From Granulibacter bethesdensis (GTDB taxonomy: Bacteria > Pseudomonadota > Alphaproteobacteria > Acetobacterales > Acetobacteraceae): a stretch of 64,000 nt of DNA. The translations under genes and the position numbers were made by a program. The notes under the pieces were generated by a model. That model made no database searches. It had not been told where the DNA came from and was given only the letters and a program-made list of their open reading frames with translations. Position 1 is the first letter of the stretch. Every line of letters starts with the position of its first letter. Positions 2,541-48,962 of the stretch are shown here, piece by piece. The stretch is from NCBI RefSeq assembly GCF_001889525.1, contig NZ_CP018192.1, forward strand, positions 1,152,501 to 1,216,500, written 5' to 3'.

Positions 2541-2577
2541 ATTGGGATCGTCTGAAGAAAAAGCAGAGCGGGAATAA

Positions 2578-3087: not shown

Positions 3088-3329
3088 GACGTATCCTCAA
3101 TCGGAATCGGCGTTCAGCGGAGGTCTACAGACACATGATGGCCTGCCCCTTCGGGGTGTCATGCTTGGCCGTTTCTGTCAATCACACTGTTGCGCGAGCG
3201 ATCCTTCCCATAAGACACCAAGGCATTCAGCCCGTGTGGAAAGGGCTATGAAAAAATGGTGGCAGGGCCTGCTTTGCCGCCAGCTTCCGGTTATTCTGAC
3301 AGTGCTTTATCTCAGGAAGACGAATCGCG

Positions 3330-3872: not shown

Positions 3873-4118
3873 AGAGGCCGATGAGCACAGATTCTGCGCA
3901 TTCACGTATTTGAATCGAACAGCGATCTCCGCTACAGAGCGCTCCATACAGTGTCTATGACCGGTCATGGCAGCCCGGTTCCGGACGCTGAGTGTTTTTC
4001 TTGCGGTGTCCGCCGGTCTCTGCTAGACGCCGCGCCTCACGACTTTGCCGAACTCTCAAGGGGTTTCGCCGCCAATGGGGCGGTCACACCCCGTTTGATA
4101 ATAAGAAGGGCCTGTTCC

Positions 4119-4331
4119 ATGGCTGTTCCGAAGAAGAAAACCTCGCCCTCACGGCGTGGCATGCGTCGCAGCCATCAGGCGCTGACGGGTGAAGCCTATA
4201 CCGAATGCTCGAATTGTGGCGAACTGAAGCGTCCCCATCATGTCTGCGGCCATTGCGGCCATTATGATGGCCGTGAAGTTGCTGCTGCCGGAAATTCCGG
4301 TCGTGGCCTGAAGGGCGTGGTGCGGGTCTGA
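4119..4331 (+). CDS. rpmF: 50S ribosomal protein L32
   Basis: Small 70-residue large-subunit protein. It begins [19 protein letters not shown], the canonical L32 start, and carries a four-Cys zinc site [18 protein letters not shown] (Cys32, Cys35, Cys45, Cys48). The start ATG follows AAGAAGGG. An upstream in-frame ATG at 3951 is not needed. The stop codon lies inside a perfect 20-bp palindrome that separates it from plsX. Confidence 0.95.
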
Positions 4332-4341
4332 TCAGACCCGC
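4322..4341. repeat. Perfect 20-bp palindrome over the rpmF stop codon
   Basis: The ten bases GCGGGTCTGA are followed at once by their reverse complement, with the rpmF TGA in the middle. There is no T-run, so it is not a classical terminator. A processing or attenuation element between rpmF and plsX is possible. Confidence 0.55.
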
Positions 4342-4401
4342 CTGCATCCGGCCATTCGGATATCCGGTTACAGTCAGTCAGGCAGTATAAGGGCATCAGA
4401 C

Positions 4402-5508: not shown

Positions 5509-5545
5509 ATTTTGCGGGTAGGAAACGGAAAAGAGAAACGCGACG

Positions 5546-6514
5546 ATGAAGCGTTCCATAATCGCCGGCGTCGGCGCGTATTTGCCCAGCACTGTGGTCA
5601 GCAACGATGAACTGGCAAAGCGTGTGGACACGTCTGATGCCTGGATCCGCGAGCGGACCGGAATAGAGCAGCGTTATCTTGCAACGGCTGATGAAAGCTG
5701 TGCCTTTATGGCGGCCCGTGCCGCTGAGCGTGCCCTTGCCCATGCCGGAATGACCGCGGATGACGTAGACACTATTCTGGTGGCAACCAGCACCCCCGAT
5801 CAGGTCTTTCCGGCTGTTGCCGTACGGGTGCAGGCTTTGCTGGGAACTAAAAAAGGATTTGGATTTGACCTTTCCGCCGCCTGCAGCGGCTTCGTGTATG
5901 GCCTTTCCATGGGAGATGCGCTGATCCGCAGTGGTCAGGCCAAGGGCGTGCTGGTGATCGGGGCGGAGGTTTTTTCCCGCCTGCTGGATTGGGATGACCG
6001 GCGTACCAATGTGCTGTTCGGAGATGGGGCCGGAGCGGTTTTTCTACGCGCATCCACGGATAATGATGATCCAGCACGAGGCATTCTGTCGACACATCTC
6101 CATTCGGAAGGAGAATTCGGCGATATTCTGTTCATTGATGGGGCTAATGGTGTCGCTGGTCATCCCGGCACCATTGTTATGAATGGCAGGGAAGTTTTCC
6201 GCCACGCTGTCGGTAAAATGGCGCAGGCGGTTGAGGAAGCAATGGCCGCCAATGATCTGACCCCGGCCGATATTGATTGGCTGGTGCCGCATCAGGCCAA
6301 TTTGCGCATCATTGAGGCGATGGGCAAAAAGCTGGATCTGCCGCCGGAAAAGGTGGTTGTGACCGTCAATCGGCATGCCAACACATCGGCCGCGTCTATT
6401 CCGCTGGCATTGAATGAGGCGGTCCAGGATGGGCGTATCAAGCCCGGCTCTGTCGTGCTGATGGAAGCGCTGGGTGGTGGCCTTACCTGGGGTTCCGCGA
6501 TTCTTCGCATGTAA
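5546..6514 (+). CDS. fabH: 3-oxoacyl-ACP synthase III (FabH)
   Basis: Condenses an acyl-CoA primer with malonyl-ACP to start type II fatty acid synthesis. The 322 residues carry the full Cys-His-Asn triad: Cys113 in DLSAACSGF, His249 in VPHQAN and Asn279 in NRHANTSAAS. The C-terminal GGGLTWGSAILR closes the active site as in E. coli FabH. The ATG at 5546 follows GAAACGCGACG. Operon with plsX. Confidence 0.95.
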   Translation: MKRSIIAGVGAYLPSTVVSNDELAKRVDTSDAWIRERTGIEQRYLATADESCAFMAARAAERALAHAGMTADDVDTILVATSTPDQVFPAVAVRVQALLGTKKGFGFDLSAACSGFVYGLSMGDALIRSGQAKGVLVIGAEVFSRLLDWDDRRTNVLFGDGAGAVFLRASTDNDDPARGILSTHLHSEGEFGDILFIDGANGVAGHPGTIVMNGREVFRHAVGKMAQAVEEAMAANDLTPADIDWLVPHQANLRIIEAMGKKLDLPPEKVVVTVNRHANTSAASIPLALNEAVQDGRIKPGSVVLMEALGGGLTWGSAILRM

Positions 6515-34149: not shown

Positions 34150-36063
34150 TCATGCGACGTGAACCTGAGTCAGTCGCTGAAAATGCCCTCCCTGCAAACC
34201 CTCAAACGATGCGCCCGTGATGATGATCTGCGCTCCGTCGAAAGCGTCGGTGGCGAGGAGATCGATGAACGGCTGAACAATGAAGTTCTCCTTGTCGCCG
34301 ATCGCTTCGCCCAGAAAATCGCCGGGCACATCGACGATCGTGAGGCCGGGGTAATGACAGCTAGGAGCGGGCGACAATGTCAGCAGTCCATAGTGATACG
34401 CCATCAGAAAATAGAGCGAGTCGGTGCCTCCGAGCGCCTTGGCCCAGGGGCGCCGACCGACAAGAATGCGGATCTGGCGCCCGGAGAGTTCAATGCGGAC
34501 GCTATTGTGCCGCCACGTTCCCGGCTGAAGCCCGTTCAGGGCCGTAAGATACGCGTTCATGCCATCTTCGAGCAGGCCAGCCGCCGCATCGAAATCTAAG
34601 GCGCGGATTGCGTTGCCGACACGCTCCTCGATCGGCTCGATCTTCTTTTGCAGCTTGGCAATCTGGTTGGTCAGGTCCGCGCCGACCGCAAGCGCCGCGT
34701 CCACTCGGTAGAGCTGTCGATAGCGTTCATCAAGCTGGCCGAGCGCCATATCGAGGGCAGTGATCCCGTCCTGAACCAGTGCCCCCATGACGGTGCGGGT
34801 CGGTATCAGCTCCCGTTCGATCGCCTGTAGCTCAGACTCTGCCCTAGCCAGAAGAGCGGACTGTTTATCCTGTTCACGGGCAAGTACCGTCAGCAGCTGA
34901 TCGGCCTCGGCGAGTTCCGCCGCGAGGCGGTCACGCTCGAACCGGAGCCGGGCTGCGCCCAGTCCCTCGATTTCAGGTTCCGGTGGCAGGTGCTGATGAC
35001 AGAGGAAGCAATCGTCGCTGTGCCCAAGTGCGGGCTGTACGACTTGGTCGCATGCCGGACAGTGGGTGATCCGCAGATCTGCGAGTACCGCACCCGCGTC
35101 TGCGGCGCGATCCATACGTTCGATCTCCTCCACCAGATCGGCACGGTACCGCTTCAGCTCTACCCCGCGCTCCGTGGTTGCCTGATGGGCCTTCGCGGCG
35201 GATTCGAGTCGCGCGGCCGCGTCCGCGCGAAGATGTCCCAGCTCGCCGATGCGACTGCGCTGATCCTCAGCGATCGCTATGTCCGCGGCATTGGACAATA
35301 GAACTTCCCGCTCGCGGTGCAGGCGAGTCAAATGCTGATCGAGCCGTTGGCGCGCCGAGGCGATGGTAGCGGTGCTGACGCCGAGCTGGATATCGTCCTC
35401 GTCCAGGAGGTCGCGGGTTAGCTCGTTCAACGTCATGATGTAATGCTCACGCCGCACAGCTAGGCGTTCGGCCTGCATCTTCAAGTTAATCAGCTGACCG
35501 TAATCCTCGCTGAAGACATGTTCGGCGAGTCCAAGGAACTGGAGGAGGCTGGCAAGTTGTTCGCTTTCAGGCTGGCGGTCGGCGATGTCCGACCATAGGC
35601 TCTGGCGCCGGTAGATATGGCGAAGCAACATGCGAAAGCTGAGTTCGGGCCAGGTCTGGCCCGACATAGGATTGCCCTTTGGAAAATTGAGGAGCGGAAT
35701 GCCGAGCCTTTCCAGCAGCCAGTGCTGGAAGTCACGAGCCATCATCGGCTCCTGGTCGACGAAGATCTTCCCACGGTTGCCTGGTTCGGTCCACCGCCGC
35801 GAAATCCAGATTTCGTCGTCGCCGATCCGGATCTGCGCAGCCGCGGCGTCGTATTTGGTCGAGAGCCCTTCGCCTTCGGCCTCTTCGAACGGATTGGCGC
35901 CTGGGTCACCGAGCAGGAAATCCAGGGTCTCAAGCCATTTGGTCTTGCCGGTGTTTGGGCGCCCGACGAGCAGGTTCACCCCCGGAGTGAAGCTCAGGCT
36001 CTCCTTGCCACCGCCGGCGAGGCGGCGATTGAGCGAGAGGATCGAGAGGAAGGGAGCAGTCAT
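34150..36063 (-). CDS. DUF3732-like SMC/Rad50-type ATPase of an ABC-3C-like system
   Basis: 637-residue ATPase that should power a tripartite defence complex. N-terminal Walker A GRPNTGKT (34-41) is followed by a long coiled-coil region. Its hinge is a four-Cys zinc site CPAC..CFLC (Cys335, 338, 352, 355). The C-terminal lobe has signature-like LGGTDS (544-549) and a Walker B-like strand LTIVDVPGDF (Asp578), where the usual catalytic Glu after Asp is not seen. Start overlaps the stop of the middle-component gene (ATGA). Homology to DUF3732/ABC-3C is my reading of fold and context, not a search. Confidence 0.72.
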   Translation of the reverse strand: MTAPFLSILSLNRRLAGGGKESLSFTPGVNLLVGRPNTGKTKWLETLDFLLGDPGANPFEEAEGEGLSTKYDAAAAQIRIGDDEIWISRRWTEPGNRGKIFVDQEPMMARDFQHWLLERLGIPLLNFPKGNPMSGQTWPELSFRMLLRHIYRRQSLWSDIADRQPESEQLASLLQFLGLAEHVFSEDYGQLINLKMQAERLAVRREHYIMTLNELTRDLLDEDDIQLGVSTATIASARQRLDQHLTRLHREREVLLSNAADIAIAEDQRSRIGELGHLRADAAARLESAAKAHQATTERGVELKRYRADLVEEIERMDRAADAGAVLADLRITHCPACDQVVQPALGHSDDCFLCHQHLPPEPEIEGLGAARLRFERDRLAAELAEADQLLTVLAREQDKQSALLARAESELQAIERELIPTRTVMGALVQDGITALDMALGQLDERYRQLYRVDAALAVGADLTNQIAKLQKKIEPIEERVGNAIRALDFDAAAGLLEDGMNAYLTALNGLQPGTWRHNSVRIELSGRQIRILVGRRPWAKALGGTDSLYFLMAYHYGLLTLSPAPSCHYPGLTIVDVPGDFLGEAIGDKENFIVQPFIDLLATDAFDGAQIIITGASFEGLQGGHFQRLTQVHVA

Positions 36064-36635
36064 CGGCGAATTACCTTGCCCATTTCACGACGCCCAACCT
36101 CCGCGTCGAACAGCCGATAGATTAGGTCTTTGAGAAAGGTTCCGGAGCGTGAACCGAAGACGGTTTTCACCTCGCGCAGCCGCTGGACAAGCGGGGTGAA
36201 TGAGGGACGTTCAACAAGCAGCTTCGCGCGGTTCTTCCCCAAGGCCGTCAGGCTGATCTGATAGGACTTCTTCTGCTTCTCGACGTGGATGAGTTGCTTG
36301 GCCTCCAGATGCGCGAGCACATGGTAATAACGCTTATCCCACGGGCCGTAGTGGTGTCGCACCATTGAAGCCTCCACCGCATCACCGTCTGATTGAGCCG
36401 CCTCTCCCTCAGGCACTTCCGGCGCTTTGCCAACCGCTGCTCGGGCAACTTCGAAGAAGTCGGGGTAGCGCGTGAAGAAATCCAGCTTCGCCATCTTGGT
36501 GAGGCCGTCGATGCGCCCGGCCGTTCCGCAGATATGCATCAGCAAAAGCAAGCGCGCGGCATGAAACTCTAGGATGTCGTCGGCAGCGAGCGGCAAACTC
36601 GCAGGTTGAGCGCCGAGGCGGTTGAGCGACTTCAT
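36060..36635 (-). CDS. Winged-helix middle component of an ABC-3C-like system
   Basis: 191 residues. The N-terminal part has the family-like phrase IDGLTKMAKLDFFTRYPDFFEVA, then an acidic spacer and a winged-helix stretch MVRHHYGPWDKRYYHVLAHLEAKQLIHVEKQKKSYQISLTALG. Such middle components link the effector to the ATPase in ABC-3C systems. It overlaps both neighbours by 4 bp (ATGA at each end), so the three proteins are made together. No enzymatic motif. Confidence 0.7.
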   Translation of the reverse strand: MKSLNRLGAQPASLPLAADDILEFHAARLLLLMHICGTAGRIDGLTKMAKLDFFTRYPDFFEVARAAVGKAPEVPEGEAAQSDGDAVEASMVRHHYGPWDKRYYHVLAHLEAKQLIHVEKQKKSYQISLTALGKNRAKLLVERPSFTPLVQRLREVKTVFGSRSGTFLKDLIYRLFDAEVGRREMGKVIRR

Positions 36636-37810
36636 GCCGAAGGCGGCTCGAAGCGAAGCAGGCAGCGGTCTGCGATGTCGTACAGGCAGCCTTTCAGAAA
36701 TGCCGACTGGTCTTCGAGGCCCTTCGGACGGGACGCGTTGATCGCGTCCATCCGCTCGACGCAGAGGGCATGAAATACAGGCCCGGTCGCCTCCAAAGCG
36801 CCGGAGACCAACCGCGTGCGCAGGGTCAGCGCGTCGGACTTCACACGGCGCTGTAGCTGTCCGACTTCTTCGCTTTCCTGATAACGGGGTGTCCGGACGG
36901 CCGCGGCATAGTCGAGGCGAAGGTCCAGTGCCAAGGCAATGATCTCCGCAGGCAACGATGCTGCCTCCAGCTTCTCGGCCAGCCTTCCGCCGGACACACG
37001 CCGGGCACCCTCAGCAAGCTCTTCAAGCTTGGCAGCCCACCAGGCGGTGACCCGGCCTCGAGTAATGATCTTTTTTGCCCGGTCGGGCTTCCATTTCGCA
37101 TCGCCGGCTACCTTTGCCATTTGGCGAAGATCCTCCAGCAACGTGTCGAGCTGGTCGAGCAGCAAGACCGAACATCCGGCCGCTACGGCAAGGGTCATCA
37201 GCCTCCGCCGATTCTCGTTTACAACCGCCTGATACTCATTGCGGACGTCCCATCGACAGTGTTGCAACCAATAGCCGCAATCATTACCCTTGGCCGATTT
37301 TACGTTGGGAAACCGCTTTTCGATCTCTGCTCGAAGTGCGACCATCTCCTCTGCCTTCAGGACTCGGGCTTCGGTCTTGAACGGATAGGTCAGGGGCTTC
37401 AGCGCCTTTGCCGGCTGGCGCAGAGTGACAATTCGAAAGTGCGCAATTTCACTATGCTTGTCACGGCCAAGTGACGTTTCGAACAACGACGATCCGGGCG
37501 TCTTTTTCTTCTCGCACAACAACGCCACTGTCCAAAGCTGGTCTGGCTCCTCGGCCTTAACTTGCGCATACTCTGCAATTAGTGCTTCAGAGGTCGCATC
37601 CTGACGGATGACAATCGCATCTTCATGTGTTTCGCAGTGGACCTTGAGAACGGTGACGTCTTCGAGCATTTCGATAAGGAAGCCGACGACAATCTCGTCC
37701 TGATAGGTGAAGCCGGTCCGCGCGCTCGGACCTCCTTCTTCGGTCGGACATAGGTCGTCGACAGAAGGCCAGATTTGCTTTGGCCCAGCGTCACCAACTG
37801 CTTCAGACAT
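36632..37810 (-). CDS. Cap4/DUF4297-like nuclease effector of an ABC-3C-like system
   Basis: 392 residues. N-terminal GFTYQDEIVVGFLIEML and the PD-(D/E)xK-like core ETHEDAIVI (Glu63-Asp64) with AEYAQVK (Gln83-Val-Lys85) resemble the double-strand DNA endonuclease domain of Cap4/DUF4297 proteins. The remainder (residues about 150-392) is alpha-helical and may bind the partner. First gene of the three-gene operon. The nuclease role is inferred from motif and position; alternative is a non-catalytic DUF4297 member. Confidence 0.68.
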   Translation of the reverse strand: MSEAVGDAGPKQIWPSVDDLCPTEEGGPSARTGFTYQDEIVVGFLIEMLEDVTVLKVHCETHEDAIVIRQDATSEALIAEYAQVKAEEPDQLWTVALLCEKKKTPGSSLFETSLGRDKHSEIAHFRIVTLRQPAKALKPLTYPFKTEARVLKAEEMVALRAEIEKRFPNVKSAKGNDCGYWLQHCRWDVRNEYQAVVNENRRRLMTLAVAAGCSVLLLDQLDTLLEDLRQMAKVAGDAKWKPDRAKKIITRGRVTAWWAAKLEELAEGARRVSGGRLAEKLEAASLPAEIIALALDLRLDYAAAVRTPRYQESEEVGQLQRRVKSDALTLRTRLVSGALEATGPVFHALCVERMDAINASRPKGLEDQSAFLKGCLYDIADRCLLRFEPPSA

Positions 37811-38104: not shown

Positions 38105-39502
38105 TCACAAGTCGTCGTCCCACCCGTCGACCCATGCTCCATCCGCCTGCATTGTCGCCATCAGGCGCCGGATTGTCAGAACGATCTCGGCCAAGCGCAG
38201 TCCGTCGATCGGACGGGCGTGCATCGTCGGGCGCCTGTGTGCATTGAGGCGCTGCAGATCGACCTTTAGCCCGTCGCGATCGCCGAACACCGCTCCGAAC
38301 ACCTCCTCCCAATTCTGTCGGGTGGAGATTACGGCGATCAGATCACCAAGATTGGTGAAGTTGATGAGCGGCTGGCGATCCTCGCCCGCCTTGTAGGCAT
38401 CGCGCCGCGTCCGTTTGGCTTCGCCGACGATATTCCCTGGTACGCGTGCGGTGAACCACTTGGTGGCGTCTTCGCCTTTGGCTGCCAGATGTGCCTCCAG
38501 CTTCGCCGCGATATAGGCGCGTAACACCACCTCAAACGCGTCGATCGCGCAAAAGGCATCATGCCGGGCGCAGCCGGTGGTTATCGACATCCGCAGCGGG
38601 CCGATCTCGACTACGGCCTTGACCCCGGTTCGCGTTCGCTTGCCCTCAACGACGCCGCTGTCGACCAGTACCTCCACGACCGCGGCGCTGTCGGCATCCA
38701 CCAGTCCAGGATCGACATCGGCGTCACGGTAGAGGCGTTCCCGCGTCGGTCGGTCGCGCCAAAAGGCCGCCGGAAGATCGGGGTGGGTATGCCATGTGCC
38801 AAGAAGTGCATCGAACGCAGCCTGACCCAGCGACGCGCGTGGACCGAAGGTGTCGAGCGCACCAGCAAAGGCGGACATCCGCAGTGTCGTGGCGTCCCGG
38901 ATGGCAGACAATTCGATCCCGCGGCTCGCCCGCGCAGTCAGATCGCTCACATTGGCGCTGCCTGTCGCCATCCGCTGGAGCCTGGCCATTTCCTCAGTCG
39001 CGGTGTCGGACGCTTTCAGGATGCTGGACAACGCAGCCTCGTCACGCGCCAGCAGCCCGGACGACCAGTTCGTAGCGCGGGTGATGGCACTGATTTCGGC
39101 GCGTTGCGCGATAGCCGAGGCGGTCAGATCCTGTCGCAGCGTATCCGAGAAGCCGCCGCCAAGATAATCCCGCTGAATTCGGTCGTTCAGCGTACCAATT
39201 TGGTCGCCATACTGTCTAGCCAGTGCGGTGGCAGTTGTAGCCGCGTCGCGTCCGACCAGAAACTCACTGGAGAGGCGGGTGCTGAAGCTCTGCTTTTCGC
39301 GCAAATAGGCGCCCACGCTACCCAAGGCGTTGTCTCGCAAGCCCAGAGCGACTTCCTCTAGTCCCGACCGAGGTCGATTGCCGAACAGGCCACCTAGCGG
39401 CTGCATAGCCCGATGCGCCTCCGCGATAGCTGATGCGGTTTGATCGATTCCCATCAGTTCTTTGAGCCGGCGCTGTTCCCGGAAGTAGTCGTCGATCGAC
39501 AT
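38105..39502 (-). CDS. Swt1-type HEPN domain protein
   Basis: 465 residues, no membrane segment. Residues 1-300 are helical, rich in Ala and Arg, and not recognised. The C-terminal 130 residues (AFCAIDAFEVVLRAYIAAKLEAHL ... NWEEVFGAVFGDRDGLKVDLQRLNAHRRPTMHARPIDG) fit a Swt1-like HEPN domain with an Rx4H-type pair in RRPTMH, the RNase motif of active HEPNs. It lies 294 bp upstream of the ABC-3C-like operon on the same strand and divergent from the toxin-antitoxin pair. A defence or RNA-cutting role is inferred from family and place. Confidence 0.62.
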   Translation of the reverse strand: MSIDDYFREQRRLKELMGIDQTASAIAEAHRAMQPLGGLFGNRPRSGLEEVALGLRDNALGSVGAYLREKQSFSTRLSSEFLVGRDAATTATALARQYGDQIGTLNDRIQRDYLGGGFSDTLRQDLTASAIAQRAEISAITRATNWSSGLLARDEAALSSILKASDTATEEMARLQRMATGSANVSDLTARASRGIELSAIRDATTLRMSAFAGALDTFGPRASLGQAAFDALLGTWHTHPDLPAAFWRDRPTRERLYRDADVDPGLVDADSAAVVEVLVDSGVVEGKRTRTGVKAVVEIGPLRMSITTGCARHDAFCAIDAFEVVLRAYIAAKLEAHLAAKGEDATKWFTARVPGNIVGEAKRTRRDAYKAGEDRQPLINFTNLGDLIAVISTRQNWEEVFGAVFGDRDGLKVDLQRLNAHRRPTMHARPIDGLRLAEIVLTIRRLMATMQADGAWVDGWDDDL

Positions 39503-39649
39503 CGTGTTCGGTGCCCCGGCTTTGCTGCCTTTTAGGTAGGAAGCGGCGTGCCGATCTTCTACCGTCCAGCGGCCTCACGCCGACGATCGCAGGGAAGGAC
39601 CGTAGGAGCCAAGGCACGCCGCGCGGCCGTTGTTTGAACGGCTGTTCTA

Positions 39650-39661
39650 GGATATATATCC
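39650..39661. promoter_or_regulatory. Palindrome upstream of the toxin-antitoxin genes
   Basis: Perfect 12-bp palindrome GGATATATATCC, 24 bp before the antitoxin start and within the divergent HEPN/antitoxin gap. AT-rich centre and position fit an operator for antitoxin autoregulation, which is inference. Confidence 0.45.
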
Positions 39662-39684
39662 AGCCATATGATTGGAGGCTGGCG

Positions 39685-39987
39685 ATGAGCAATGCCGCAC
39701 AAAAGCGAGCGATCCGCAATTATCGGTCACGTCAGGCCCAGCGGGGTATCGCGCGTTTCGAGGTTCAGGCGCTTGACGCAGACCGCGAACTGATCCGCGC
39801 GCTCGCTCGTCGGCTTGCCGATGACGGCCCGGAGGCGACGCACGCACGCACGATCGTCCAACAGATCGTGTCCGGAGAACCGCCGCATCAGGGCGGCATC
39901 CTTCAGGCGTTGCGCCGCTCGCCGCTCGTTGGCGCCGATCTCGACCTCGGCCGCGCCCACGAGGAAGGGCGCAGGGTCGATCTGTGA
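39685..39987 (+). CDS. Antitoxin of a VapBC-like pair
   Basis: 100 residues, ATG at 39685 after TTGGAGG. The N-terminus MSNAAQKRAIRNYRSRQAQRGIARFEVQALDADRELIRALARRLA resembles the ribbon-helix-helix/DNA-binding part of alphaproteobacterial antitoxins; the C-terminus should wrap the toxin. Its stop overlaps the GTG start of the PIN toxin (GTGA), the normal antitoxin-toxin coupling. Confidence 0.72.
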   Translation: MSNAAQKRAIRNYRSRQAQRGIARFEVQALDADRELIRALARRLADDGPEATHARTIVQQIVSGEPPHQGGILQALRRSPLVGADLDLGRAHEEGRRVDL

Positions 39988-40415
39988 CGCGATACCTGCT
40001 CGACACCAACATCATCAGCAACATCGTCAAGCCGACGCCTTCCGCCCACCTGCTCGACTGGATGGCGGAGCAGCGCGACGATGCGCTATTCATTGCGTCA
40101 TTGACGGTCGCGGAAATCCGGCGTGGCGTTCTGGAAAAGCCGGCCGGCAGGAAGCGCGAGGCGCTTGATGCATGGTTTGCCGGTCCCGAAGGACCGCAGG
40201 CTTTGTTCGCGGGGCGCATCCTGCCGTTCGACGACCGGGCCGGGCTGATCTGGGCGCGGCTGATGGCGGACGGGAAGATTGCCGGCCGCCCACGCAGCGG
40301 CCTCGACATGATCGTCGCGGCAGTCGCCGATGCCAACAATTGCGTAGTCGTTACCGACAACGAGAAGGACTTCGCCGGGCTTCAATTCATCAATCCATTG
40401 CGTGGAGCAGCCTGA
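39984..40415 (+). CDS. VapC-type PIN ribonuclease toxin
   Basis: 143-residue PIN protein. The acidic catalytic set is present: Asp7 in YLLDTN, Glu44 in TVAEIRRG, Asp108 in SGLDMIVAAVA, and Asp125/Asp129 in VVTDNEKDF. It should cut RNA, typically tRNA or rRNA, when not bound by the upstream antitoxin. GTG start. Confidence 0.85.
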   Translation: MTRYLLDTNIISNIVKPTPSAHLLDWMAEQRDDALFIASLTVAEIRRGVLEKPAGRKREALDAWFAGPEGPQALFAGRILPFDDRAGLIWARLMADGKIAGRPRSGLDMIVAAVADANNCVVVTDNEKDFAGLQFINPLRGAA

Positions 40416-40451: not shown

Positions 40452-41234
40452 ATGGCTGAAACCCAGATCGAGTGGACCGACTCCACTTGGAATCCCGTCG
40501 CGGGATGTTCGATCGTCACCGCCGGCTGCACGCATTGCTATGCGATGGAGATGGCTAAGCGACTCGAAGCGATGGGCGTCGACAAATATGCCGGGCTGAC
40601 CCGAAAGACCGGCAAGCGGACCGTCTGGAACGGCGTAGTGCGCGAAGACCGCGACGCGCTGTCGATCCCGCATAGCTGGCGTAAGCCCCGAAAAATCTTT
40701 GTCAACTCGATGAGCGACCTGTTCCATGAACGGGTGAGCGACGCCTTCATCCTCGACGTCTGGCAGGTAATGCGCGACACGCCGCGGCACAATTATCAGA
40801 TTCTCACCAAGCGACCCGAACGCATGGCAGAACTTGTTGCCAGCCAGATCGGGGAAGTCCTGCCAAATGTCTGGCTCGGCACCAGCATCGAGGACGCCGA
40901 TGTCGTGGATCGCATCGAGCATCTGCGCAAAGCGCCTGCCGCGATCCGCTTCATCTCGTTCGAGCCGCTGATCGGCGGGGTTGGTGCGGTCGATCTCACC
41001 GGCATTCATTGGGCGATTGTCGGCGGCGAAAGCGGCAAGTCCGCCCGTCCGATCCGCGAGGAATGGATCGACGAAATCCACGCTCGATGCCTCTCGGCCG
41101 GCACCGCATTCTTCTTCAAGCAATGGGGGACATGGGGCAAGGACAACAAGAAACGGTCGAAGAAGGCGAACGGCCGCGAGTATCGTGGGCAGACCTGGGA
41201 TGAGATGCCGACTGTGACACACGCTGTCGCATAA
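40452..41234 (+). CDS. DUF5131 (Gp37/Gp68) three-Cys-motif protein
   Basis: 260 residues, phage Gp37/Gp68 family. N-terminal EWTDSTWNPVAGCSIVTAGCTHCYA carries Cys19, Cys26 and Cys29 (CX6CX2C), reminiscent of the radical-SAM CX3CX2C cluster. Other family blocks: FVNSMSDLFHE, QILTKRPERM, NVWLGTSIEDADVVDRI and ISFEPLIGGV. Enzymatic function is not known. The downstream gene is its constant partner TcmP (26 bp away), so the two form a module. Confidence 0.85.
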   Translation: MAETQIEWTDSTWNPVAGCSIVTAGCTHCYAMEMAKRLEAMGVDKYAGLTRKTGKRTVWNGVVREDRDALSIPHSWRKPRKIFVNSMSDLFHERVSDAFILDVWQVMRDTPRHNYQILTKRPERMAELVASQIGEVLPNVWLGTSIEDADVVDRIEHLRKAPAAIRFISFEPLIGGVGAVDLTGIHWAIVGGESGKSARPIREEWIDEIHARCLSAGTAFFFKQWGTWGKDNKKRSKKANGREYRGQTWDEMPTVTHAVA

Positions 41235-41259
41235 CAGGGCTGAGTACAGGGGAGGCGGT

Positions 41260-42516
41260 GTGGTCGAGAAGCGATATGAGTGGGCAGACGGCGCAGTTCT
41301 CGAAGAACATTCGCGCCGGAAGCACAAAATCCTTCGCGAATATGTGTTCGACTATCTCACCGTCCGCTGCAAGTTGCCGCAGCAGGAGCGTTTCCGGCTC
41401 GCCATCGTCGATGGCTTTGCCGGTGGCGGGCGATATCAGTGTGGCGCGGCCGGCTCGCCACTGATCTTCGTTGAGGAGCTGAAGCGGGCGGTTGAAGCGG
41501 TGAACACGCAGCGGGTCGTTCAGGGACTTGGCGCGATCGAGGTCGAGTGCTTGCTCGTCTTCAACGACGCCAGCCGCGACGCGATCGAGCTACTGAAAAC
41601 GCATGTCGCCCCAATGCAAGCCGACATCGCGCTGACCTGCCCCAAGCTTCACTTAAAGGTGGAGTATCTGAACGACTTCTTCGAGATCGCTTATCCGAAG
41701 ATCAAGGCGCTGCTGGGACAGGGCCGCTACCGGAGCGTGATCTTTAACCTCGACCAGTGTGGCCATAGCCATGTCGAACGCGGCACGATTCTCGACATCA
41801 TGCATTCCTGGCCCGCAGCCGAAATCTTTTACACCTTCGTCATCACATCTTTGCTGGCGTTTCTCCAGAAGGACGAACCCGAGCGCCTGCGCTCGCAGCT
41901 CGACCACCTCGGTATTCCGGCCAACGACATGCAGGCGCTCGACGGGCTGATGAGCCGGAAGGACTGGCTCGGCACGGCCGAGAAGATCGTCTTCGACGCC
42001 TTCCGCCTATGCGCTCCGTATGTCAGCCCGTTCTCGATCAACAATCCCGGCGGATGGCGATACTGGCTGATCCACTTCGCCAATGCGTATCGGGCGCGGC
42101 AGGTCTACAATAACATCCTCCACGACAATGCGAGCTTGCAGGCACACGTCGGCAGGCCCGGCCTCAATATGCTGTCCTACGATCCTCGGCATGACGAGAG
42201 GATGCTCTATCTCTTCGACGATAGGGGACGGGCGTCAGCGAAGACCCAATTGCTGGACGACATCCCCCGTCTCGTGACCGAGGCAGGCGATGCGATATCC
42301 GTGATGGAGTTCTACGAAAGCATCTACAACGTTACCCCGGCGCACGCGGACGACGTTCACGCGGCGATCATCGAGAACCCGGACCTTGAGGTAATTACAC
42401 CGTTTGGCGGCGAGCGCCGCAAGGCCAATACGATCGCCGTGAACGACATCATCAAGCTGAAGAACCAACGCAGCTTCTTCCCGATGTTCCTGAATGCGGC
42501 AACGAAGACCAAATAG
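41260..42516 (+). CDS. tcmP: Three-Cys-motif partner protein TcmP
   Basis: 418 residues; GTG at 41260 after GGGGAGG. The TcmP family is named because it accompanies DUF5131. The N-terminal half looks like a class I methyltransferase fold: IVDGFAGGGRYQCGAAGSPL (glycine-rich loop, residues 49-68), LLVFNDASRDAIELLKTHV (possible motif II) and VIFNLDQCGHSHVERG (possible motif IV). SAM binding is an inference from these signs. It converges on the helicase gene, 55 bp away. Confidence 0.8.
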   Translation: MVEKRYEWADGAVLEEHSRRKHKILREYVFDYLTVRCKLPQQERFRLAIVDGFAGGGRYQCGAAGSPLIFVEELKRAVEAVNTQRVVQGLGAIEVECLLVFNDASRDAIELLKTHVAPMQADIALTCPKLHLKVEYLNDFFEIAYPKIKALLGQGRYRSVIFNLDQCGHSHVERGTILDIMHSWPAAEIFYTFVITSLLAFLQKDEPERLRSQLDHLGIPANDMQALDGLMSRKDWLGTAEKIVFDAFRLCAPYVSPFSINNPGGWRYWLIHFANAYRARQVYNNILHDNASLQAHVGRPGLNMLSYDPRHDERMLYLFDDRGRASAKTQLLDDIPRLVTEAGDAISVMEFYESIYNVTPAHADDVHAAIIENPDLEVITPFGGERRKANTIAVNDIIKLKNQRSFFPMFLNAATKTK

Positions 42517-42571: not shown

Positions 42572-45166
42572 TCACTTTCCGACGAATTCCATCGCATCGG
42601 CTGCCTTTTTCAACCGTTCGACAATTGTGGATTGGGTCAGACCATCCTTGTGCAGGCGCTTCTTCGCATCATCCTTCCAGAGCAGATTGCCGTGCGGCGG
42701 CAGCTTCGCTTTCAATTCCCTCACGGTCTGAATGGCCTTCTTTGCCCATTTCTGGAAATCATCGACCGACCAATAGAGTACTTTCTTCAGGGCCGGTTTC
42801 GCGCCGATCCCGGCCTTGGTGCACGGCGTGACGAGAATTGCGGTCAGGCTCAGATCACCGGCGCCCGGCACATTTTCCTTGATCCAGTCGGGGTGCATCG
42901 CGGCCTGCTTCGCTTTTTCCGCGCCGAACACCGTCGTGGCGCTGCCATTAGCATGATCCTCAAAAACGATGCCCTTGGTTTCTCCGAGCCACCACGGATC
43001 GGGCGCGGCATCGGACTCCCCGTTTCCGGCGGTGAACCCAAGCAGCTCGCCCAACTCGCGCTGGCCTTCCTCGAACGTCTCCGGCTTGACGAGGTTCTTG
43101 AGGATACGCTTGGCCTTCTTCTCGAACGCGCGGTCGTTCGCCGTACCCATCGCAAGCAGCGTCGCTTCGAGACGTTCGACTTGGACGATGGCATCCTCGT
43201 CAACGATCTCGGACTCGGCTGCCTCATCCGTCGACTGCGCCTTCGCCAGGCGCGCCAGCCAGCCTACACCCGGCGCGGCCTTCATTGCCTCGCCGAACTG
43301 TTCGCGCGCCGTCTGCTGGTGCGCGTCGTTGGCGGCCTTTGACATGGACCAGGCGACGGCCCCCGCCAGATAATGCCACAGCGCACGATAGCCGCGAAGT
43401 TCTGGCGCGGTCAGCTTTGCCGTGATCGCCCGGGCTTCGACGAGTGCGGTATCGGCGTCTCCCATCCATAGCGCTTTCGAATAGCGCACTTCGTGGGCGA
43501 CGACGTTTTCGAGAATGTCCATCGCCGGATAGGGCGTCTGGGTGTAGTCGTTCGCATTGTCGAGGATTTCAGCGTTGGCCTCGGCCCAGTCGTTCTTATT
43601 GGCGAGAAAGCTCTTGAAATTGCCGATGAGATCATCGGTCTCGACATCCTTCGACTGCTCGACCCCGAATGCGAGTTCGGCCTGAAGCTCCGGATGGAAA
43701 TGCGCCCAGTTACGATCATCGGCCAGATATTCGAGCAACTCGTGCCCGGTGACGAACACCGCAGAACGATCCTGAAGGGCACGGGTGCAGCGCCCTGCCG
43801 CTTGCAACACGCGCGTCTGGAGCCGTTCGTTGAACAGCGCCATCGCGCCCATCTTGGTCATCAGGAACCGTTCCTGGGCGTTGGTCGCCTTCGGCAGTCC
43901 GTCGAGGCATAGGAGGTGACATTCGTCATTAGGAAAGTCGATGCCGTCGAAGCGGCCAGCCATGATGGCAGCCGCCTTATCGGCACCGACGAAGTCCTCC
44001 TTCGAATCTTCGATGTCAGCAGCGTTGAAAATCTCGAATCCATCGAGTTCCTCCACCTGCGCGCGGATGGTCGCTGCCGCAGCCTCGTTCGGCGTCAGGA
44101 CGACAGACCGCCCGGCAAGCTTCTGCATTTTCAGCCGCAGCTTCTCGCACTCGGCCGGTTCGAGCGACAGGCCTGGAAAGATGAAGAAGCGTCGCCCGAC
44201 GCCTGCCGAGCGGAATCCTTCGGGAGCAGGTAGTCGCCGGATCGCCGACGTGCCGGTCAGTCGTTCCAGATCACCGCCGGCGCCCAATGTCGCCGACATA
44301 AAGATGCGCTGCTTGGCGTTGGCGAACGGAGCATGATCCCAGACCGGCGGTATCAACGGGCGGATAAGGATTTCACGCGACGCAAGATAGACGTGACATG
44401 ACGACAGATGGTCGCGCAGCAATTGCCAGTGGAATGTAACATCGTCGCTGGCATCGGAATTGGCGTCGATGATGTCGGTGAGTTTCGGCGCAATTTCTTG
44501 AAGGACCGTCGATGGCAGCTTGTCCACCCATGTTGCGTCCGACGGGTCTTTCCAGTCGCCGGTGAGGCGGGCGTGGGATTGGCCGGTCAGATAGGGGCGC
44601 AGGAGGTCGCTGACTGCCGCATGGAGCGCGGCATGGTCCTCGTCGCCAGCCGGTATCTCCAGCGACCACATTTTGGCGATGTAGTTTTCGGCAGCGTGGG
44701 CGTCGTCGATGATGACGACATCTGGATTGCTAAAAAAGGGGCGGACGTTGAACAGGCTGGAATAGGTGGTAACAGCGACCTTGGCTCCAGTAGTGTAATC
44801 CGACTTGGACGCCGCAGAATAATTCTTCTTCGCGCTGGTAAAGCCGACAGCATCGATCCCGTAGCGGTTTTGCGCCTGATCGACAGTTTGGTTGACGAGC
44901 TGTCGCGTCGGGCAAAGATAGACGACGCGTTCCTTGAACTTGCGCCGGCGCTATTCCGCAATCAACAGACCGACCAACGTCTTGCCGCTTCCTGTCGGCA
45001 GTTGAAGGGCAACATCCTTTTCATTGACCATCTGCTCGCCGTAGGCGCGGAGCATGTCGCGCTGGTGCGTCATGACATCGGGCAGCTTCCGCCGGGTCAG
45101 GGTCTGAAAAAGCTTTGCCGGCGAGTCCGGCGCGCTCAGGGTCGCGGTGTTCTTTTTGAATGCCAT
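42572..45166 (-). pseudogene. DinG/XPD-like superfamily 2 helicase split by an in-frame amber codon
   Basis: One open frame of 865 codons if the TAG at 44951-44953 (codon 72) is read through. Upstream part: HQRDML (Q motif-like) and Walker A LPTGSGKT (57-63). After the stop the same frame continues without any shift: motif Ia-like CPTRQLVNQ, DEAH-like VVIIDDAHAAEN, and near residue 400-480 the HELICc2 block with QAAGRCTR (motif VI). Only one base (TGG to TAG) would restore the frame. The second part has its own ATG at 44671, but that product would lack Walker A. The C-terminus is not recognised. It may be a fresh null allele or may need suppression. Confidence 0.8.
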
Positions 45167-45553
45167 AGATCGGGGCTGCTTCCGAGATTCGTTAGTCCGT
45201 TGTCGATGCCACTCATTCCAAAAAAGCTACCCAGGGTCGAGCGTTACCGACGAGCCGCCGGTAGGAGAGTGGCTCAATATAGCTTCTGCGCTTTTTGATG
45301 AGGCTGCTAGGGGCGCTGCCCCACGCGCGGGTCAAGGGATCGCTGTCGCTCGTCGGGGCCGGTATCCCCGGCCTTCCTCCACGTCGTTCCTCCGTTCCGT
45401 GCAGGCCGGGTGATACCCCTCCGGCCCGGACGCCCTTGCCCCTTGCTACCCCCGCTCTCGCCGAGGGGCAGGAGGTCAGACGCGGCGCTGTGCTGCGCTG
45501 ACCTCCAGACCGAAGGACAAGGCCATGACCGACACCGCCAATGCCCCCGCAAC
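45167..45553. other. 387-bp gap between helicase and methyltransferase
   Basis: No gene recognised. The plus-strand frame of the methyltransferase opens within it at 45410 but the first credible start is 45554. GC-rich stretch with a TGCCCCT/AGGGGCA inverted repeat at about 45432-45471. The tail (GAGGTCAGACGCGG and AAGGCCATG) looks like the leader of an alphaproteobacterial plasmid/ICE core, an impression not tested. Confidence 0.4.
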
Positions 45554-46192
45554 ATGATCTTCAATGGCGATTGCATCGACGTGATGCAGGCGTTCGATAC
45601 CGGATCGGTGGACATGATCCTGACCGACCCACCCTATGTCACCAACTACCGCGATCGGCAGGGACGCAGCGTCGCCAACGACGATAACGGGCGCTGGCTC
45701 AAGCCGGCGTTCGCCGAAATGCACCGGGTGTTGAAGGACGGCGTGTTCGAAGTCAGCTTCTACGGCTGGAACAAGGTCGACCTGTTCATGGAGGCGTGGC
45801 GCGCGGCGGGTTTCCGCATCGTCGGGCATCTGGGGTTCCGCAAGCGGTATGCGTCGTCGTCGTGGTTCCTGCGCTACGAGCACGAACAGGCGTATCTTCT
45901 TGCCAAGGGCAATCCGAAAGTGCCGGCCCGCGTCATCCCCGACGTGATCGACTTTCCGTACAGCAGAAACAGGCTCCACCCGACGCAGAAGCCGGTCGAG
46001 GCACTGCGCCCGCTGATCGAGGCGTTCAGCCGGCCGGGCGAACTGGTGCTGGACCCGTTCAGCGGATCGGGATCGACGCTGGCGGCGGCACAGGCGCTGG
46101 GACGCGATTGGGTCGGGATCGAACTGGACAACGGCCACTATCACACCGCCACCCGCCGGCTGGTGGAGGCGAACCGCAGCGCAGCCGCATAG
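45554..46192 (+). CDS. Site-specific DNA methyltransferase (orphan)
   Basis: 212 residues from the ATG at 45554, beginning MIFNGDCIDVMQAF. Catalytic motif IV DPPY (25-28) comes before motif X/I block LDPFSGSGSTLAAAQAL (167-182), the beta-type order used by N6-adenine or N4-cytosine methyltransferases. The internal region (RKRYASSSWFLRYEHEQAYLLAKG) may hold the target recognition part. No restriction enzyme gene is next to it, so it is likely an orphan or an anti-restriction/replication-control enzyme of the plasmid-like module. Confidence 0.88.
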   Translation: MIFNGDCIDVMQAFDTGSVDMILTDPPYVTNYRDRQGRSVANDDNGRWLKPAFAEMHRVLKDGVFEVSFYGWNKVDLFMEAWRAAGFRIVGHLGFRKRYASSSWFLRYEHEQAYLLAKGNPKVPARVIPDVIDFPYSRNRLHPTQKPVEALRPLIEAFSRPGELVLDPFSGSGSTLAAAQALGRDWVGIELDNGHYHTATRRLVEANRSAAA

Positions 46193-46466
46193 GCTGCCCC
46201 ACCATCGCGAGCATCGCCCGCCGGCCACCCCCCGGCGGGCGGCCATGCCTCCCAAAGGTCGGCATGGCCGCAAGTGACGCGCTCGCCGGGCTGCGTCCGG
46301 CTCGCCAAGACTTGATTAAATACATCCAATATGGAAGAACTTGTTTACCAATATCGATCGCGCAACGCGATCTACATATCTGCAAATACCATCTGCAAAT
46401 CTCGACCCAAGTAAATGACGCTTCCTCTTTCCAGCGATGCTGCGCTGGCAGTAAAGGGGGGACGCC

Positions 46467-47259
46467 ATGCCGAATACCGATTGGCGCACGCCGGCCACCT
46501 ACGCCTATGCTCGAAACATCTCGACCGCCGGGTTCGCATGGGAGTTCCTTCGCCGCGATCCCGACTATCGTCGCGACTTCCGGCGAGTGAAGGCGTCGCC
46601 TCGCGGGGCGGTCGAGGCGCAGGCGGCGTTCACCGATCGATGGGGGTTGCGATTTCGCGGCGGACCCGAACCGGCGCGCCGACGAGGCACCGCCGTTCTG
46701 GTGGCCCGCGCTGCTGCCTGACGCCTTCGAGCTGCGACGCGCCGTCCTGCCGCTGGACGATCCCGCCGCGATGCCGATCTGCCTGTCCGAGTTGCCCAGC
46801 CTCGACGTGCGCGTCTCCCTAGACGGAACGTGGCATGGCGTCTGGCGCACGATCGGCGCCGACCATCGCTTCCACCTCGCCATCCCGCCGCCAGGCGAAG
46901 CTGCACCGTACATCGTCGTCCTGCCGCTGGACCGACTGCTCGAATTGCGCGCGGACGCGGTGGTGCGCTTCTGGCTCGCCCTGCGAGGCCGCCCGCCCCG
47001 TAACCGGCGGCACGACCTGCCACCGCAGACCCGCGCCCGCCTGATCCTCGTCCTGCGCGCGCTGGACGGCCGGCTGACCGGCGCCAGCTACCGCGACATC
47101 GCGAAGGTGCTGCTCGGTTTCCGCGGCGGCAAAGCCGATTGGGACAGCGATCCGCGCAAGAACCAGGTGCGCCGCCTCGTTGCCGATGGCCTGCGCTTCC
47201 TGCACGGCGGCTATCGCGACCTGCTCGTCTATCCCGTCCGGCTGCCAAACCGTCGCTGA
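46467..47259 (+). pseudogene. DUF6499-DUF2285 protein, broken by a +1 frameshift
   Basis: Plasmid/ICE-type regulator with N-terminal DUF6499 (TDWRTPATYAYARNISTAGFAWEFLRRDPDYRRDFR) and C-terminal DUF2285 (about 46771-47259; ends RRLVADGLRFLHGGYRDLLVY). The two parts are in different frames: near 46655, in GATTTCGCGGCGG, one extra base shifts the frame. Reading frame 1 up to WGLRF and frame 2 from AADPNRRADEAPPFWWPALLP gives one sensible protein of about 263 residues. ATG follows AAAGGGGGG. DUF2285 half could be made from internal ATG 46771. Confidence 0.75.
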
Positions 47260-47283
47260 CCCTTCAACTGCCCCCGCGCCCGG

Positions 47284-47660
47284 GTGCCGGAATTGCACCC
47301 TGCCGATTCCGGCACGCTACACGCCGCCGGTTCTCCGCCACGGTTCGCCATAGCCCGCTGCCGCCCACCGGCAGGCCGCCATGCACCGCCGGAGATCGAT
47401 CCCAAGACGGGGTTGCCACCCCGCTATCTGCGTGCGCCCGATGCCGCGCGCTTCCTCGGCATCTCGATCCGCACGCTGGAGAAGCACCGGACCTCGGCAC
47501 CAGGCCGACTTATCGTAAGGTCGGCGGGCTCGTCCTCTATTCAGTCGAAGACCTCCAGGCATGGACCGCTATCGGCGCGCGCAGGTCGGCCTCCGAGCAG
47601 ACAGCGACCCGCGTCTTCCCGGCGCGCCCGCTGACCGCGGCCGAGAAGGCGTCGATCTGA
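47284..47660 (+). pseudogene. Helix-turn-helix (excisionase-like) protein, broken by a -1 frameshift
   Basis: The ICE-type HTH protein that normally sits between DUF2285 and RepA genes. First part, from a GTG at 47284: PPRYLRAPDAARFLGISIRTLEKHRT. One base is missing near 47498, in ACCTCGGCACC. In the next frame the protein goes on as RPTYRKVGGLVLYSVEDLQAWTAIGARRSASE and ends ...TAAEKASI at 47660. Together a typical ~110-120-residue MerR/excisionase-like winged helix. The stop TGA abuts the RepA ATG. Confidence 0.72.
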
Positions 47661-48602
47661 ATGTCGGGCGATGCCACCCGGAGCGAGCGCCGGCAGCTCG
47701 ACCCGTTCGTCGTCGCGATCGGCGACGCCGCGCCACGCGACCAGCGCGACCTGATGGAGCGGCCGTTCTTCTCGCTCGCCCAGGCGAAGCGCACCGCGCC
47801 GATCCTCTACGAGGCCGGCGGCCAGCGCGTGGAGGTCCACGCCATGCCTGAGCACGGCATGGCGACGATCTGGGATGCCGACGTGCTGATCTGGGCGGCG
47901 AGCCAGATCGTCGACGCCGCCAATCACGGCCTGCGTACCTCGCGCTTCCTGCGCTTCACGCCCTACCAGATGCTGCTCGCGATCGACCGCGCCACCGGCG
48001 CGCGCGAATACCGGCTGTTGAAGGGCGCGCTCGCCCGCCTGCAATCGACCGTGATCCGCACTACCATCCGCCACGGTGAGCATTGGCGGCGGCACCAGTT
48101 CTCCTGGATCAACGAGTGGGAGGAGCTGACCACCCGCGACGGCCGCGTCGAGGGCATGGAGTTCGTCCTGCCCGACTGGTTCTATCGCGGTGTCGTCGAC
48201 CGCTCGCTCGTCCTGACGATCGACCCGGCCTATTTCCAGCTGACCGGCGGGATCGAGCGCTGGCTCTACCGTGTTGCCCGCAAGCACGCCGGCCACCAGC
48301 CGCACGGCTGGGTGTTCGAGGTCGCGCACCTGCACAGCAAGTCCGGCAGCCTCGCGCGCGTCTCCGACTTCGCGCTCGACCTGCGCCGCATCGTCCAGCG
48401 CCAGCCGCTGCCCGGCTACCGGCTCGACATGGGGCGCGACGGGCGGCGCGAACTCCTCCGCATCCGCCCCATTTCGCCGTCCAAAGTGCCTGTTGACGGA
48501 CCTGTGGAAACGCTCGTGACTTCGGGCGCAAACGGTATCAGGATTTCGGGCGCACGAACCGCAGCTAAGTCTCTGGCCGAGAACGCCGAATCCAGCTCGT
48601 AA
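47661..48602 (+). CDS. repA: RepA-type plasmid replication initiator
   Basis: 313 residues. The pattern RFLRFTPYQMLLAIDRATGAREYRLLKGALARLQSTVIRTTIR is typical of the RepA (RPA) initiator of alphaproteobacterial plasmids and ICEs; GIERWLYRVARKHAG and the basic HSKSGSLARVSDFALDLRRIVQRQ (winged helix) follow. Intact, unlike the two upstream genes. No parA follows, as would be usual; a PP-loop fragment and a tRNA come next. Whether it still functions is unknown. Confidence 0.82.
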   Translation: MSGDATRSERRQLDPFVVAIGDAAPRDQRDLMERPFFSLAQAKRTAPILYEAGGQRVEVHAMPEHGMATIWDADVLIWAASQIVDAANHGLRTSRFLRFTPYQMLLAIDRATGAREYRLLKGALARLQSTVIRTTIRHGEHWRRHQFSWINEWEELTTRDGRVEGMEFVLPDWFYRGVVDRSLVLTIDPAYFQLTGGIERWLYRVARKHAGHQPHGWVFEVAHLHSKSGSLARVSDFALDLRRIVQRQPLPGYRLDMGRDGRRELLRIRPISPSKVPVDGPVETLVTSGANGIRISGARTAAKSLAENAESSS

Positions 48603-48689
48603 CTTAGAGTCTAACAAAGAATCTAACTCTATTGCTGTCGCGCGTACGCGAGCCGGGCACGGTGCCGGTGCCACCCGCCGGGGTGCGCC

Positions 48690-48872
48690 GTGATCGTCGC
48701 GCAGCACTTCGGCAGCATCTCAGGCGGCAAGGACAGCCAAACCGTCCTGTGCCTGATGGTCGAGCGGATTGAGCGGAACATCATGGGATCGAAGAGCGAC
48801 CTACTCAGGACGCTGGTCGCAGCAGAAGGAGGAAAATCGGCGGCTATCGGCGTGCCCAGCCGGGGACCGAAG
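48690..48872 (+). pseudogene. PP-loop ATPase (PAPS-reductase-like) N-terminal fragment
   Basis: From the GTG at 48690 the frame reads VIVAQHFGSISGGKDSQTVLCLMVERIER, with the SGGKDS loop of N-type ATP pyrophosphatases/PAPS reductases. After about 30 residues the likeness ends and the frame runs straight into the tRNA-Ser gene. So only the 5' end is present, cut at or near the island border. Confidence 0.5.

Positions 48873-48962
<90 letters not shown>

Follow-up and report, generated by a model that had tools for sequence, protein, structure and literature searches.

A probable three-component Lamassu (ABC-3C) immune operon, of a clade apparently without experimental study, at a variable tRNA-Ser site of Granulibacter bethesdensis

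Introduction

In passages of the three papers cited here on Lamassu, LmuB is the likely sensor, LmuA is the effector and the outcome is abortive, and the triggers named are stem-loops, DNA ends, and stalled replication (PMC10586767, PMC12904381, PMC12409362); other published statements below are likewise taken from passages of the papers cited. A tetramer of liberated LmuA is reported by preprints cited in PMC12409362. LmuB generally carries Gln in place of the catalytic Glu of the Walker B motif, and ATP hydrolysis may be slight or nil (PMC10586767). Here we analyze a three-gene operon in a stretch of 64,000 nucleotides from Granulibacter bethesdensis (NZ_CP018192.1, positions 1,152,501 to 1,216,500 of the forward strand), which as a whole we call the window. 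The operon encodes a nuclease, a middle protein, and an SMC-like ATPase, and we think it probable that it is a three-component Lamassu, or ABC-three-component (ABC-3C), immune operon of a clade that apparently lacks experimental study. The observations made here concern gene structure, conservation of the operon, family matches, conserved active-site residues, and the mobile setting.

The nuclease leads to a second group of described systems. The Cap4 domain is already known to serve both the cyclic oligonucleotide-based antiphage signaling system (CBASS) and many Lamassu systems (PMC10586767). AbpAB, a proposed variant of Hachiman with a Cap4 front domain (PMC12278908), includes AbpA, a two-domain protein of Cap4 and HamA (PMC10732053, PMC12278908). 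Asp45, Gln58, and Lys60 of AbpA sit in the Cap4 active site, and phage T4 grows normally when AbpA carries Q58A or K60A, Gln58 and Lys60 being needed for anti-T4 defence (PMC10732053).

Results

An initial annotation of the window had placed three genes at 34150..37810 that overlap by ATGA at each junction. The coordinates proved right, both overlaps read ATGA, and the three minus-strand frames are intact, in the order nuclease (392 aa), middle protein (191 aa), and SMC-like ATPase (637 aa):

36632..37810, minus strand: LmuA-like effector with a Cap4/AbpA-type nuclease domain (about residues 20-270) and an unmatched C-terminal domain (Pfam, PDB, PADLOC)
36632..36635, minus strand: ATGA overlap of the nuclease and middle genes (read from the sequence; an RTGA overlap in 11 of 14 operons, the window counted)
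36060..36635, minus strand: LmuC-like middle protein whose C-terminal half weakly resembles a winged helix (PADLOC, Pfam)
36060..36063, minus strand: ATGA overlap of the middle and ATPase genes (read from the sequence; ATGA in 10 of 15 operons, the window counted; of the remaining 5, 4 overlap by 1 bp, as TAATG)
34150..36063, minus strand: LmuB-like SMC/Rad50-type ATPase (PADLOC LmuB; forms a clade by itself with support of 100/98)

Judged by family matches, the operon belongs to the Lamassu/ABC-3C superfamily, as the initial annotation had supposed, because in 10 of 10 clade members the ATPase matches the PADLOC LmuB model (in the window at 9.7e-28 over residues 14-615) and in 10 of 10 the middle protein matches LmuC (6e-12 in the window, 3.1e-18 at best). 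With the PADLOC LmuB model PDLC03863, 40 of 299 genomes gave a match, the window's own among them, and 30 loci were fetched. In a maximum-likelihood tree of 42 LmuB rows, a well-supported branch (100/98) separates the window clade from all other rows; groups with a DUF3732-type and an S/T-type LmuB likewise stand on well-supported branches, and the tree gives no order of joining. Among general libraries, Pfam returned only sub-threshold AAA/SMC matches for the ATPase, and an archaeal SMC-related protein of NCBIfam matched at 6.1e-13, far under its cut-off (48 versus 300 bits). The single ATPase found nothing in the PDB at E ≤ 1, and its profile matched, at 0.018 at best, heads and coiled coils of SMC/Rad50 proteins.

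The ATPase had been called DUF3732-like, which holds as a likeness and fails as a family assignment. Pfam DUF3732 (PF12532) does not match the window ATPase at E ≤ 1, nor any of 10 clade members at E ≤ 0.01, and membership of that family is rejected; the ATPase of locus L040, used as a control, matches it at 1.1e-49. Among more distant ATPases, L064 lies barely over the DUF3732 cut-off (25.5 versus 25 bits), and L061 and L063 do not match. Profile-profile alignment (hhalign) of the clade ATPase, in turn, gave 99.3% (525 columns) to DUF3732-type LmuB and 99.7% (546 columns) to the S/T type. The PDB chains of the DUF3732 type, named "DUF3732 domain-containing protein" (9hqu, 9ny5, and 9uxl), probably come from Lamassu complexes. 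Of the profile searches that had been proposed for the three proteins, the one with the Cap4 nuclease family gave matches, and those with DUF3732 and the Pfam ABC-3C middle-component (MC) families did not.

The ATPase carries the following motifs:

35941..35964, minus strand: Walker A, GRPNTGKT (K40 invariant in 16/16 operons)
35050..35061, minus strand: first hinge CxxC, C335 and C338 (15/15 clade members)
34999..35010, minus strand: second hinge CxxC, C352 and C355 (15/15 clade members)
34327..34332, minus strand: Walker B Asp578, then Val579 in place of Glu (Val in 11, Phe in 3, and Asn in 1 of 15 clade members)

The four-Cys hinge described in the initial annotation, CPAC...CFLC in the window, recurs in all 15 clade members, and its cysteines probably bind zinc. 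The missing catalytic Glu was likewise borne out: the residue after the Walker B Asp is Val in the window and, across the 15 members, Val in 11, Phe in 3, and Asn in 1, never Glu or Gln. Other sampled rows have Gln here (DUF3732 type), Ser or Thr (S/T type), or Gly, Asn, Ser, or Thr (remaining groups), and Glu occurs only in L026-L028. Loss of this Glu is by itself ordinary in LmuB, since it is general there (PMC10586767) and frequent in the rows that we sampled. The double CxxC is also found outside the clade, in L029-L032, L041, L042, and L046 as well as in L061 and L063-L065. The suggestion that four cysteines and a missing Glu mark a divergent subtype was therefore not sustained, both being widespread in the LmuB rows sampled, and the two features alone are rejected as a diagnosis. 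What was met only in the window clade, among those rows, is a hydrophobic replacement (Val or Phe) of the Glu. We saw no H-loop-like His in the clade's aligned region, where 7 of 7 DUF3732-type rows have one and other groups also lack it, and no canonical signature Ser; both calls were made by eye on a low-identity alignment and are tentative. From these residues the ATPase would be expected to bind ATP and to hydrolyze it poorly or not at all.

The middle protein had been described as a winged-helix protein, for which there is a match, albeit a weak one: DUF6293_C, in the C-terminal half, below the Pfam cut-off. Two motifs stand out:

36462..36497, minus strand: KxAKLDFxxRYP (K47, A49, K50, L51, D52, F53, R56, Y57, and P58 invariant in 16/16 operons)
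36336..36350, minus strand: YGPWD (invariant in 16/16 operons)

None of 10 clade middle proteins matches a Pfam MC family at E ≤ 0.01. Middle proteins of other clades, taken as controls, match in three of four cases (L018, MC2; L029, MC5; L040, MC3; L042, none), and the nearest approach is that of the distant L063 to MC4, below the cut-off (17.2 versus 28.1 bits). The absent match reflects an incomplete catalogue; a Pfam MC family is not what defines Lamassu as such. In profile alignments, the middle proteins of L042/L046 are the closest among the other groups (97.1%). PADLOC knows the family through the LmuC models that match it, and hence it is not new to every library. Against the PDB, the single protein gave one chance match at 0.65, and the profile gave none.

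The genes keep together. The order effector, middle protein, ATPase is the same in the intact relatives opened, whether on chromosomes, on plasmids, or in viral contigs. Pairwise distances of the three proteins correlate across 16 operons (Mantel r, 0.97 to 0.98; 0 of 5,000 shuffles reach that) and among the 8 closest operons (r, 0.65 to 0.86; 2 to 20 of 5,000 shuffles as high), indicating that the genes travel together. An all-against-all comparison of neighbors revealed no conserved fourth gene, only sharing between pairs such as L003 and L013, and the idea of such a conserved gene is rejected. In that pair, the same genes follow both operons (L003, 8063-13908; L013, 8057-13911) at 71 to 86% identity. 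Their products are proteins of 176 aa and 1072 aa, the latter helicase-related, and a large third protein; the genes may be another defence module that moves together with the operon.

When each species was represented by one genome, 26 pattern matches were obtained, of which 9 are ATPase relatives. That homologues of all three genes occur together in other genomes was confirmed: the middle gene lies directly upstream of the ATPase gene in 9/9 relatives, and the nuclease gene lies upstream in 8/8 where the contig reaches (L004 starts at the middle gene, and L002, from the 68%-identical relative Ancylobacter amanitiformis, is cut inside the nuclease). Querying plasmids with the ATPase returned 7 records, 6 of which were opened; five have all three genes (L012-L016, the ATPase frame of L014 being broken close to its start), and L017 holds an ATPase remnant alone. 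The middle protein matched 27 plasmid records, and 11 were opened, 6 of them additional. Four of these 6 carry the nuclease, middle, and ATPase genes in that order (L061, L063, L064, and L065); L060 has the nuclease and middle genes with an ATPase of 228 aa, and L062 is split up by insertion sequences. Within the phylum the operon is sporadic. In a sample of 398 genomes, the ATPase profile matched only the window's own genome, and the middle-protein profile matched that genome plus two weak loci (L070 and L071). Among 60 genomes (its own and 59 relatives), the single ATPase found one weak partial match besides its own, and none of the 59 relatives has a full-length copy.

INPHARED phage records contain no match to the window ATPase or to an ATPase from a viral contig, and 133 pattern stretches from viral contigs include no relative by the ATPase profile. 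Nine pattern matches in viral contigs led to five loci (L072-L076), in all of which the three proteins match; as members of the broader family of the middle protein, they fall outside the window's own narrow clade. In L074, a gene for a terminase large subunit stands on one side of the three genes (2548-6333) and a portal gene on the other; the terminase shows 57.6% identity with those of phage WO across 93% of its length, and the portal protein reaches 45.8% across 92%. L076 is arranged alike, with a terminase 97.5% and a portal 96.3% identical to those of L074, and in L072 the three genes adjoin a protein weakly like tail tape-measure proteins (25 to 27%, partial). By their position, the three-gene kin in L074 and L076 are cargo within a phage morphogenesis cluster.

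Such placements, the plasmid copies, and a gene for a RovC_DNA-bd protein in the window's island, which we take to be of a kind carried by integrative elements, speak for an alternative in which the same machine benefits another party. The operon would then be a weapon of the integrative element, plasmid, or prophage that carries it, turned against rival phages and plasmids. On the other side, any placement of the chromosomal copies in mobile elements would be putative, and the ATPase profile found no phage-contig copy from the window's own narrow clade. We regard this alternative as somewhat unlikely.

The assignment of the first protein as a Cap4-like nuclease was upheld by Pfam Cap4_nuclease (PF14130), which matches it at 5.6e-18 and is present as the N-terminal enzyme domain in 8/8 clade effectors. 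The only strong solved relative is AbpA (8zue), which the single protein matches at 2.1e-6 and the profile at 4.5e-24; CBASS Cap4 (6vm6) is a weak match (E, 0.01). We located the active site by counting residues along the PDB alignment of the window nuclease with AbpA:

37619..37633, minus strand: nuclease active site, E60...D64 (invariant in 16/16 operons; D64 corresponds to AbpA Asp45)
37556..37564, minus strand: nuclease active site, Q83-V84-K85 (Gln and Lys invariant in 16/16 operons; they correspond to AbpA Gln58 and Lys60)

This kinship raises the possibility that the operon is a derivative of Hachiman/AbpAB, with a nuclease of the HamA/AbpA line that follows that system's logic and an ATPase in place of the helicase. 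PADLOC agrees at first sight, scoring the window nuclease higher as HamA1 (3.2e-58) than as LmuA (8.8e-9); both models match all eight clade nucleases, with HamA much the stronger and best by E-value in each. However, the HamA1 match covers only profile positions 5-250 of 539, the Cap4 half, which stands in front in AbpA-like proteins. When a sample of 249 genomes was searched with HamA1, both matches besides the window's own fell on the other half (positions 277-537). The HamA domain proper (PF08878) matches neither the window nuclease nor the 8 clade members, whereas the control L068 has it, in a protein of two domains (Cap4, residues 14-176; HamA, 298-521). A DEAD/DEAH helicase adjoins that protein, and a helicase also adjoins the 541-aa protein annotated as HamA in L067; the partners in the window are LmuB-like and LmuC-like. 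Because the match is to the Cap4 half alone and AbpA is a two-domain protein, the operon has AbpA's effector domain in common with it, and not AbpA's system. With the HamA domain and the helicase missing, membership of Hachiman/AbpAB is largely refuted, and we rate it as very improbable.

Behind the Cap4 domain, in the effector tail (about residues 270-392), the Pfam families of ABC-3C C-terminal domains (CTD) find nothing in 8/8 clade effectors, where Cap4 is the only match apart from a weak DUF5983 in one. Of two control effectors from other clades, one matches (L018, CTD6); L040 does not, its frame being cut by the end of the locus. Effector residues K280 and C383 are invariant in 16/16 operons, which suggests a conserved C-terminal domain.

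A 115-aa protein of Sinorhizobium medicae, present in 6 plasmid records, covers just the first 70 residues of the nuclease at 51% identity. In the record opened (L066, 4483-4830), it lies near AbiE-type genes. The match ends before the QxK motif, so a functional short form is rejected, and the protein is apparently a remnant of the clade's nuclease.

The remaining possibility, a complex for DNA repair or chromosome maintenance resembling SbcCD/Rad50-Mre11, could draw on the weak Rad50/SMC matches of the ATPase but is hard to credit in view of the sporadic distribution (no full-length copy in 59 relatives, and 1 match in 398 genomes, the window's own), the carriage on plasmids and phage contigs, the Cap4 effector, and the missing catalytic Glu.

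The operon had been placed in a foreign island, and indeed it lies in a variable segment beside a tRNA gene:

48873-48962: tRNA-Ser

Two congeners, both of those searched, have the window's flanks at 92 to 95% identity and different DNA between them. On the left, the shared sequence ends at window position 33722 or 33960; on the right, beside the tRNA-Ser gene, it begins again at 48870 or 48779. The congener inserts measure about 2.0 and 21.9 kb and resemble the window island at their edges only. The comparison identifies the tRNA-Ser site as a likely integration hotspot. No match to a duplicated tRNA-Ser end was detected near 33.7-34.1 kb, and a second attachment site of that origin is rejected. 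At the same site, congener G002 (L057-L058) carries about 22 kb of other cargo with, near the tRNA end, a putative serine recombinase frame recognized by eye.

Further genes occupy the island between the operon and the tRNA gene. A 465-aa protein encoded at 38105-39502 (minus strand) has a sub-threshold Swt1-like HEPN match (0.0032) and matches PADLOC PDC-M34B at 4.4e-10; its gene, next to the operon, is a candidate for a defence function of its own. At 39511-40415 (plus strand), a PIN-domain (VapC-like) gene (39984-40415) overlaps by 4 bases a preceding 158-aa frame with no good family match, and the two possibly form a toxin-antitoxin pair. A DUF5131 protein (2.3e-101; PADLOC PDC-M41B, 1.6e-100) and then a sub-threshold GMT-like winged-helix protein follow at 40452-42516 (plus strand), a candidate second defence module. 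The stretch 42572-48900, which adjoins the tRNA-Ser gene, contains a helicase C-terminal domain (within 42572-44671), the RovC_DNA-bd protein (46771-47259; 1.8e-29), and other frames that by eye resemble plasmid or integrative-element genes. It perhaps represents the remains of an integrative element.

Discussion

The observations of the initial annotation are confirmed, and its interpretation is partly supported. Assignment of the operon to Lamassu has points against it as well: the strongest PADLOC label of the effector is HamA and not LmuA, the effector tail finds no match among the docking domains catalogued, and the LmuC matches of the middle protein are only modest in E-value. Profile alignment of that protein with its counterparts in the DUF3732-type, S/T-type, and L029-type groups gives no match (0.3 to 0.7%), and the weak matches L070 and L071 stand without a nuclease match in their short loci.

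Taking the operon as a Lamassu-type immune system, the same sensor and effector scheme most likely applies by analogy: an SMC-like dimer and the middle protein would silence the nuclease until invader DNA frees it. Complex formation, release, the trigger, and an abortive outcome are inferred from tested Lamassu systems. In such a scheme, the SMC/Rad50-like LmuB would act as the DNA sensor and dimerize, and the four-Cys zinc knuckle would hold its coiled coil at the tip. Docking of the effector on LmuB would fall to the effector's own C-terminal domain and to the LmuC-like middle protein; there the LmuA-like protein, an AbpA-type Cap4 DNA endonuclease, would stay silent. Abnormal DNA of an invading phage or plasmid (ends, hairpins, or stalled forks) would then change the shape of the complex, and the nuclease, freed or oligomerizing, would cut DNA and so destroy the invader or the infected cell.

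On sequence grounds, the clade is set apart by Val or Phe in place of Glu, by a Cap4 domain close to that of AbpA, and by a middle protein and effector tail outside the Pfam ABC-3C families. One may go further, tentatively and short of an even chance, and see in it a separate and so far undescribed Lamassu subtype with a non-hydrolyzing, irreversible sensor, an uncatalogued YGPWD middle protein, and an AbpA-type nuclease, whose wider family, as cargo of phage morphogenesis clusters and of plasmids, serves as an inter-element weapon. If Val or Phe for Glu, the absent canonical signature Ser, and the absent switch His truly mean that ATP is bound without hydrolysis, then activation would be irreversible, a single shot.

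The clade contributes an SMC-based operon whose Cap4 domain stands closer to the helicase-based AbpAB than to LmuA models. Through it one could examine, in compact form, the working of a Lamassu sensor that has lost its hydrolysis residues, and also the role of the middle protein, since two motifs are unchanged across 16 operons. The copies within phage gene clusters would make a Lamassu-type system testable as an inter-phage weapon.

Among known systems, Wadjet also pairs an SMC-type sensor with a nuclease (PMC10586767), but the PADLOC matches to the three window proteins at E ≤ 1 include no Jet family. CBASS Cap4 belongs to the same nuclease family (PF14130); the window operon differs in its SMC-like partner, the nuclease has no SAVED match at E ≤ 1, and Pfam scans of 15 window proteins revealed no cyclase. 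With AbpAB the operon shares a Cap4-type nuclease domain with equal D...QxK residues, whereas it has neither the HamA domain nor the helicase, and its sensor is different. The comparison is closest with type II Lamassu/ABC-3C (for example, DdmABC and the DUF3732-type LmuACB). There the window ATPase stands outside Pfam DUF3732, with Val or Phe rather than Gln after the Walker B Asp and with a second CxxC; the middle protein and effector tail are outside the Pfam MC and CTD families; and, tentatively, the clade lacks the H-loop-like His that DUF3732-type Lamassu has (7/7 rows). The literature that we surveyed, which did not extend to the structural papers on Lamassu or to the first classification of ABC-3C, contains no description of this clade. 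It appears to be a clade of a known system, with which it shares an effector, a middle protein, and an SMC-like ATPase in one operon, a Cap4 effector, a substituted catalytic Glu, and a hinge zinc motif present in many homologues (PMC10586767, PMC12409362).

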